NCBI GenBank assembly: GCA_019637075.1
Contig: JAHBWI010000003.1
Span: forward strand, 1-64,000
DNA length: 64,000 nucleotides
Source: Nitrospiraceae bacterium
GTDB lineage: Bacteria > Nitrospirota > Nitrospiria > Nitrospirales > Nitrospiraceae
Direction of reading: 5' to 3'
The notes under the pieces are model-generated. The model was not told where the DNA came from, ran no database searches, and saw only the letters and a program-made list of their open reading frames with translations. The position numbers were made by a program, and so were the translations under genes. Positions 29,370-31,287 of this stretch are shown one piece after another (the first letter of the stretch is position 1; every line of letters begins with the position of its first letter).

Positions 29370-29494
29370 GGCGTGCATTCTCTTCTGTGTTGAGGTAAAC
29401 AGATGGGCGTTGATCGAACTATCTTAGGAGCGGGGAGCGAAAAAGGCAACGTAGCGAGCGGCTGGAAGTGTCGGCTAAAAAGAGGATGTGCCTC

Positions 29495-30640
29495 TCAGGT
29501 CTCTTCTTCTTTGTCGTCGAGTTCGGCAAGGACCAGTGACACGGAGTTCTGTGAACCGAGCGCACCGACGATCGTGACGGGTGTGCCCACCGCGACGCGA
29601 TCGAAGAGGGTGGCCAATTGCGGATTGTCGAGTACGATACTTCCGTAAGGTTGATCGGTGATGCCTACGGCGATCCCGTGGATTTGAATCAGGCCGGGCA
29701 TCTGCTGGCTCTTGGGGATCAGCCCCGCCTGTTGTGCGGCCTCAAAGCGTCGACGATCCTCTGCATTGGGATAGTCGAGGATGAGCGAGCGAAAGTAGGG
29801 CGTCTGCCCGGCGCCTCGTTTGCGATGGATACGATAGCCGCCTTCAGGGGTCGCTCCATCACCATAGAATTGCTTCGCGCGGATCCCACGGGATCCCAAC
29901 CGAATCGGGTAGGTCAGCACCTGCTTCCCGTTCTTGTAGAGGGACAGGACACGGTCGGCTTTGCTGATCACGATCGCCTGTGCCTTATGGGACCGTGACC
30001 ACTCGATCGTCCGCTGGGCAGCTTCTTTCCAGGCCGTGATGAGCTCGTCATCCGCATAGCGGCCCAATTCATTCGTCAACAAGGCGGTTTGGGCGAGGAC
30101 GCCCTTTCCTGCCTCTTCCGATGCCTGAATCGATCGATCGAACTGCCCCTGTTCGAGGTAGAGTCGGGCTTGTCTGACGAGCAGTTCGGTCTGCATGGAC
30201 TGTTCGCCCAGGACCACCCGGCTGCCGATTTCCCCGACCCGGCTGTTAAGCAATCGCTGTCGTTGCTCAACGCGAGCCAGTTTTGCCTCGGCTGTCGTGC
30301 GCTTGGCCTGTACCCGTCTGCCGACCTCCTCGGCCAATTGGATACCCTCGACCTGAAGTTTCTCCAGGTCGGCCTCCAATCCATTTTCTTCCCACGGCCA
30401 ACGAACGATGTTTTCTTCCGACTGCACCCTGGTTTTCATCGCCATCCACTGCCGCATGAAATGGGCATAGTCTTCTGGCGCGATTTCGGATGCCTTCAGA
30501 TTTATTAGGTCACGATCGATGCCCTCAATCGCCTCGACCAACTCGTCGGGTACGGTTTCGACGCACCCTCCGAGCGAAACAAGCAGCAAGCTTAGCGCGG
30601 CTGCCTTGCCGACCTTGTATGAAAGAGTCCGTAGCATCAT
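29495..30640 (-). CDS. YkuD-fold lipoprotein lacking the catalytic Cys
   Basis: 381-residue lipoprotein: signal peptide with lipobox LGGC, a long helical middle region (about residues 30-225) and a C-terminal YkuD (L,D-transpeptidase) domain with AIVISKADRVLSLYKNG and the conserved His in IQIHG (His321). The catalytic stretch normally reading SHGCIR is PYGSIV here (Ser334). Catalytic Cys, adjacent His and following Arg are therefore all replaced, and ordinary transpeptidase activity is unlikely. It may bind peptidoglycan or act as a scaffold. Its start overlaps the stop of the preceding lipoprotein gene (ATGA), so the pair is coexpressed. Confidence 0.85.
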   Translation of the reverse strand: MMLRTLSYKVGKAAALSLLLVSLGGCVETVPDELVEAIEGIDRDLINLKASEIAPEDYAHFMRQWMAMKTRVQSEENIVRWPWEENGLEADLEKLQVEGIQLAEEVGRRVQAKRTTAEAKLARVEQRQRLLNSRVGEIGSRVVLGEQSMQTELLVRQARLYLEQGQFDRSIQASEEAGKGVLAQTALLTNELGRYADDELITAWKEAAQRTIEWSRSHKAQAIVISKADRVLSLYKNGKQVLTYPIRLGSRGIRAKQFYGDGATPEGGYRIHRKRGAGQTPYFRSLILDYPNAEDRRRFEAAQQAGLIPKSQQMPGLIQIHGIAVGITDQPYGSIVLDNPQLATLFDRVAVGTPVTIVGALGSQNSVSLVLAELDDKEEET

Positions 30641-31287
30641 CGGTGTATTCTAGCCCGAGGTCCTGCCTTTCGGCGAGTTTTCTCGGGGATTGCAGCAGTT
30701 GGACGCGCGGTTACCTGATGGATTTCCTCACTCAGTTCTTTGCCCTTGTCATAAATCGCCTTGGCCGACGCTTGGGCGGCCAGGAAATCATCGGCATCCA
30801 GCGCGTGCTGAATGTCCTTCAGAGACTTTTTGAGGCTGCTCACATCTTGTTTCAGATACTCGGGAAGCCGACGGTGCTCTGTTTCTGGGTACCGCGCGGC
30901 CAACTGTTGGACCGCCTTCACCGATTCATGTGCGACCGACTGGGCTTGAAGCGCTGCCGCCCGCGCCTCTACTGCGCGCTGTTCCGCCTGTGATAAGACG
31001 GTTCGAGCATCGGCTTCAAGTTGAGCCGCAAGCCCCTTGGTTAAGCGATAATCCCTCAGAAACCAAAACTTTGACTCCTGCTCAAGTAATTCCCGCCGCA
31101 GATTCGATCCGTGTCCCTGCAGTCGAGCCAGATCTTGCGGGGCATAGCGGGCGGCACCAGTCACTTGGACCTGGTTCACCAGCTCTTCGGCTGTGCTGAT
31201 TTGTGTCATGGGCGGCGCCTCACACCCGCCAAGCAGCAGCGCTAGGACCAGGGGCGTAGCTATTACGAGATGAGATTTCACCAACAT
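30637..31287 (-). CDS. Helical lipoprotein (DUF4398-like)
   Basis: 216 residues with a signal peptide ending in lipobox LLGGC (Cys about residue 22), then an almost entirely helical Ala/Gln/Glu-rich body and a basic tail (KTRRKAGPRARIHR). It resembles DUF4398-type lipoproteins, which often sit beside envelope proteins. Its stop overlaps the start of the YkuD-fold gene. The middle helical part resembles in style the helical region of that neighbour, so the two may pair through coiled coils. Confidence 0.78.
   Translation of the reverse strand: MLVKSHLVIATPLVLALLLGGCEAPPMTQISTAEELVNQVQVTGAARYAPQDLARLQGHGSNLRRELLEQESKFWFLRDYRLTKGLAAQLEADARTVLSQAEQRAVEARAAALQAQSVAHESVKAVQQLAARYPETEHRRLPEYLKQDVSSLKKSLKDIQHALDADDFLAAQASAKAIYDKGKELSEEIHQVTARPTAAIPEKTRRKAGPRARIHR

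Follow-up and report, generated by a model that had tools for sequence, protein, structure and literature searches.

The gene studied here, which we call A, lies on the minus strand (29495..30640) of a 64,000-nucleotide stretch of DNA from a Nitrospiraceae bacterium, referred to throughout as the window. It starts with ATG and encodes a protein of 381 amino acids, which a sequence-only reading had described as a YkuD lipoprotein with serine, encoded by AGT, at the position of the catalytic cysteine; our analysis confirms that description. Residues 1–26 form a signal peptide and lipobox (LGG-C26; 30563..30640, minus strand), with C26 kept across the family, the features of a bacterial lipoprotein. 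A helical domain of residues 27–218 follows (29987..30562, minus strand), which belongs to no Pfam family, all of its weak Pfam matches being below cut-off, and which is predicted with a pLDDT mostly above 90. F61, W65 and W83 of this domain are invariant in the family alignment. The YkuD domain spans residues 221–357 of the 381 (29570..29980, minus strand), where it matches PF03734 with an E value of 9.1e-15 and a score of 55.9 bits (curated cut-off 23.4). The predicted structure of A (pLDDT 85.6) superimposes on YkuD of Bacillus subtilis (1y7m/4a1i) with a Z score of 15.4 and an rmsd of 2.5–2.6 over 107–109 residues, so that profile and structure both place the window protein in the YkuD superfamily as a fold.

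The YkuD motif of the window protein is ITDQPYGSIVLDN. Ser334 is encoded by AGT (29639..29641, minus strand; the plus strand reads act), and sequence, codon and an alignment of 117 relatives all place it at the position of the catalytic cysteine. The window protein lacks the cysteine that L,D-transpeptidases require, and its PYGSIV segment also lacks the histidine and arginine of the SHGC-R motif. Two other residues of the domain are invariant, Lys256 (29873..29875, minus strand) and His321 of an IHG element (29678..29680, minus strand; 113 of 113 aligned sequences). Upstream, and overlapping A by ATGA, is the gene for a coiled-coil lipoprotein, P (30637..31287, minus strand). Downstream only a short junction separates A from the gene pgi (29379..29494, minus strand).

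To see whether the loss of cysteine is a property of this genome or of its relatives, we compared A across the taxonomic family. A orthologues were found in 158 of 175 genomes, as a rule once per genome, and the named records among the carriers are Nitrospira and relatives. The catalytic column could be read in 149 genomes, after removal of the duplicate loci of G016 and G171, and holds cysteine in 118, serine in 29 and glycine in two. The genus of the window and that of Ca. Nitrospira defluvii (g18) together form a single clade in the tree (support 100/100), in which 28 members have serine and one, G062, has glycine (PYGGIV, codon GGC); all read QP[YF]G[SG]I. Close relatives that retained the cysteine would have pointed to a local mutation, an explanation that we rule out since the cysteine is absent clade-wide: it is gone in all 28 readable species of the nearest genus and kept only in more distant genera. 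A sequencing or assembly error is likewise ruled out, because the other 28 clade genomes carry serine or glycine (serine in 27 further species of the sister genus) and both AGC and AGT codons occur; either is one base from a cysteine codon (AGY from TGY). Two further lineages have lost the cysteine separately, giving three independent losses in the family. One is G188, a single draft genome that reads TLGS, with AGT where its sister has TGT, and the other is G020, which reads TGG.

The sequence-only reading had counted cysteine, histidine and arginine as all lost, and of these only the first stands. In the family, cysteine-type proteins carry [TS]LGC, as in TLGC[VI]M, and none has the histidine or arginine of SHGCIR, so two of the three apparent losses are ancestral and only the loss of cysteine is an event; a second active-site histidine, His321, is kept. 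As these relatives lack both residues, and DpaA-type hydrolases lack the arginine, we reject their absence as a sign of inactivation.

The nearest solved relative by sequence is DpaA (YafK/LdtF) of Escherichia coli, a peptidoglycan-mDAP protein amidase (8IKR; E value 2.8e-5 with the window protein and 3.5e-7 with the profile), followed by Csd6 of Helicobacter pylori and Pgp2 of Campylobacter jejuni. DpaA/YafK (NF040599) is also the only NCBIfam match of A, at 22.8 bits against an equivalog cut-off of 365, and sequence searches find DpaA; that 8ikr is absent among the 50 structural matches listed carries no weight as evidence. A shares with DpaA an invariant lysine, K256 aligning with Lys83 of DpaA (Lys107 of Csd6), for which docking gave a contact to mDAP (PMC10653827), and the lack of an arginine after the catalytic position, DpaA having Ala145 instead (PMC10653827). 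The DpaA-type motif is SXGChA (PMC10434034); its alanine position is Met in 81 and Gln in three of 84 cysteine-type relatives. The window protein differs from DpaA in its missing cysteine, its additional helical N-terminal domain and its lipobox. In the L,D-carboxypeptidases Csd6 and Pgp2 a TxGC motif, also without histidine and arginine, aligns with the TLGC of the A family, and the structural match has Z scores of 12.7–12.9. They carry more than 80 residues after the YkuD domain, whereas A ends just past it and has no such extra domain, and the window protein again lacks the cysteine. Motif, lysine and nearest relatives suggest that the cysteine form of A is probably a hydrolase that works like DpaA or like an L,D-carboxypeptidase.

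YkuD domains without the cysteine were known before. The second YkuD domain of LdtPae1 from Pseudomonas aeruginosa reads QLGKIR, has no catalytic cysteine and is of unknown function (PMC10434034). That domain is in tandem with an active one and fused to it, while A is a free-standing lipoprotein, conserved throughout a clade and with live orthologues. In the openly licensed literature we found no other free-standing, clade-wide and constrained YkuD lipoprotein that lacks the cysteine, has cysteine orthologues and comes with a traced loss of a partner, and this form appears to be new within the literature searched; there, Nitrospira and YkuD occurred together only in connection with polymorphic toxins.

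Synteny in cysteine-type genomes gives the gene order P – A – B – C – pgi, which is the ancestral locus. B encodes a canonical YkuD protein closest to LdtE/ErfK-type L,D-transpeptidase models. It shares the fold of A, which it adjoins, and differs in having the full THGC[IV]RL motif; most B proteins also lack a lipobox. B was found in 118 of the 175 genomes. In cysteine-type relatives B and C lie where the window has only the A–pgi junction; a search of the window genome for B found none, and its locus retains P but has neither B nor C. A search of the locus in the N. defluvii genus found none of P, B and C, and pgi directly follows A. The earlier proposal that A is coupled to a second lipoprotein holds for the window, where the genes overlap; since P was not found at the sister-genus locus, it is not an obligate partner.

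P of the window is a diverged orthologue of the lysine-tailed P of relatives (34–44% identity by tblastn) and has no KKK tail. In genomes with B the P orthologues have a lysine-rich tail, 43 of 59 distinct ones ending in lysine, and their last ten residues hold on average 4.8 Lys/Arg and almost no acidic residue. The tail (loci L169–L231) recalls the C-terminus of Lpp. Comparing the profiles of P and A gave a probability of 91, a value to be read with the caution that long helices can match by composition. C, conserved directly downstream of B (L130, L135, L169–L231), encodes a protein of about 215 amino acids with a signal peptide and no Pfam match. We discarded the idea that it is a second dead YkuD protein, as a profile probability near 100 fell to 38 over 45 columns once ten misfiled B entries were removed; as a weak lead, its N-terminal half is faintly B-like (hhalign probability 38) and it may be a YkuD protein that has degenerated. 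That P, A, B and C may act as one module is suggested by their order, by their joint erosion and by the lysine tail.

The main result beyond the earlier description is that A has lost its cysteine in association with the disappearance of B, the L,D-transpeptidase gene downstream. Wherever B is intact and the catalytic column of A can be read, the cysteine is there (113 of 113 genomes), and all three losses of cysteine sit in lineages without B. Among the genomes that lack B, 31 have serine or glycine (the 29 of the clade, G188 and G020) and three still have cysteine (G171, G190 and G016). In G111 A runs off the contig edge. G179 (L142) keeps the cysteine and has lost about 27 residues including the invariant lysine and GDGATPEG, a deletion that appears to be another route of inactivation in a B-less genome. 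Five (G170, G172, G175, G176 and G184) retain just the N-terminal part of A before stops or a lost frame, and the rest have no A. G178 has a remnant of B with stops, and its A is still of the cysteine type. In the tree of genus g10, cysteine-bearing genomes without B stand beside the serine one, so that here the loss of B preceded that of cysteine; in the clade of the window both losses share one long stem branch, on which their order is not separable. Truncated and stop-containing remnants in g10 indicate that P, B, C and A erode jointly (L129, L138, L142–L147, L172, L173, L189, L228), the module as a whole having been lost recently.

Within the serine clade A is strongly constrained. By Nei–Gojobori counts over pairs with dS of 0.15–1.2, which are not independent and give direction and rough size only, dN/dS is 0.054 for A, 0.072 for its N-terminal domain and 0.034 for its YkuD domain in the serine clade, against 0.117, 0.128 and 0.095 in the cysteine relatives. 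Relative to the neighboring pgi as control, the value for A is 0.79 in the serine clade vs 0.95 in the cysteine relatives. Fixed differences between the groups are Q259Y, I314M, G315P, E319Q (27 of 29), T331P, L332Y/F, C334S and M336V/L, most of them at or near the pocket in sequence, while K256, T280, R284, H321, G322 and G333 do not vary among the 113 aligned sequences (29 of the serine clade and 84 with cysteine). Such joint changes around an invariant core argue for a single rebuilding of the pocket, which has been maintained since. Position 259 aligns with Gln86 of DpaA (PMC10653827) and E319 is invariant in the cysteine relatives; with Tyr and Gln at these two positions, the pocket may now hold a different ligand or have ceased to bind one. 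A shows in part what is expected of a pseudoenzyme, in that the catalytic residue is gone and the gene is under purifying selection. The suggestion of a pseudoenzyme made from the window alone gains support from the absence of cysteine in a clade of 29 species, from this selection and from a pocket that was remodeled and then frozen.

The explanation that we favor, with moderate confidence, is that A is a conserved pseudoenzyme that serves as a non-covalent tether between outer membrane and peptidoglycan and descends from a hydrolase of the DpaA/Csd6 type; its inactivity, ligand binding and tether role are what we infer from the observations above. The ancestor of A would have been a cysteine-dependent YkuD-fold lipoprotein hydrolase of that type, encoded beside B and P, in a module in which B would attach P to peptidoglycan and A would release it. 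In the ancestor of the window and N. defluvii genera B would have been lost, the cysteine replaced by serine (and later by glycine in one species) and the pocket rebuilt. Without B the cutting activity of A would be worthless and the cysteine free to go. A would have been retained for a non-catalytic job, with its lipid in the outer membrane, its helical domain spanning the periplasm and its dead YkuD pocket holding stem peptides of peptidoglycan. We propose that its retention is due to the combination of a lipid anchor, a helical spacer and a fold that binds peptides, which together would form such a tether without a covalent bond. A is probably a peptidoglycan-binding lipoprotein of the outer membrane, the location being read from the lipobox. 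It is physically reasonable for a YkuD domain to be dead and still bind, as the C354S form of LdtMt2 formed no product (PMC11410929) and crystal entry 8pxy, of the same mutant, bears a title that describes a complex with natural substrate.

Alternatively A could be a pseudoenzyme of a regulatory kind, one that is itself no tether and whose binding would activate or inhibit a different peptidoglycan enzyme in the periplasm. The conserved, remodeled surface round the dead site would suit such a role, and the helical domain could serve as a binding arm. However, the serine-form A is the only YkuD match in two complete, single-contig genomes, G029 (Ca. N. defluvii, FP929003.1) and G080, so that YkuD enzymes drop out as the general partner. 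A single further YkuD gene is present in the window genome (C2:669658-670098), with an intact SHGCVGL motif, which answers the earlier question of whether a second YkuD gene is present; CBS-domain-like and pentapeptide-repeat-like ORFs lie near it (L001). P, the linked candidate, was not found at the sister-genus locus, and the analysis turned up no other candidate; we regard a regulatory role as rather unlikely.

A serine-based variant, also raised from the window alone, would have Ser334 replace the cysteine as nucleophile, with A still hydrolyzing or transferring peptide bonds. The serine is conserved in 28 of 29 clade members, His321 is retained, and a Legionella YafK protein shows serine-dependent turnover of beta-lactams (PMC13400389). 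The serine of that protein lies elsewhere than the cysteine position, however (PMC13400389), and serine is a mere one base away from cysteine. The glycine of G062 and the inactivity of LdtMt2 C354S (PMC11410929) speak against a serine nucleophile, and E319, invariant in the cysteine relatives, is Gln in 27 of 29; we consider such an enzyme highly improbable. Similarly improbable is that A is a relaxed remnant, either because its YkuD domain no longer matters and selection keeps just the helical lipoprotein part, or because the gene as a whole is on its way to loss. In a related genus, B-less copies of A have indeed shrunk to an N-terminal remnant or vanished. In the serine clade, however, the ORF is full length in 29 of 29 genomes, and dN/dS is lower for the YkuD domain than for the N-terminal one (0.034 vs 0.072).

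If A is indeed a tether, the window genus and Nitrospira of lineage I might have swapped a covalent cycle of lipoprotein attachment to peptidoglycan, encoded in one locus with P as substrate, B attaching it and A detaching it, for a single non-covalent tether, the dead A, which would have given up its chemistry once B was gone but not its hold on peptidoglycan; we put this scenario forward tentatively. In another family of the order, G057 carries a pair of diverged A homologues in a span of about 9 kb, both with cysteine (TSGC and TNGC; L104, L105). When histidine or arginine is missing from a YkuD motif, this alone does not mark the enzyme as dead. A offers a natural experiment in the origin of a pseudoenzyme, as it can be traced in four states: with cysteine and partner, with cysteine and without partner, decaying, and conserved without cysteine. 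For Nitrospira the analysis predicts that most members have a linked P-A-B-C module for wall anchoring, and the pairing of Ca. N. defluvii, whose sole YkuD match is the serine form, and N. moscoviensis (NZ_CP011801.1, G094), with the cysteine form and P, B and C, makes the question of function directly testable.
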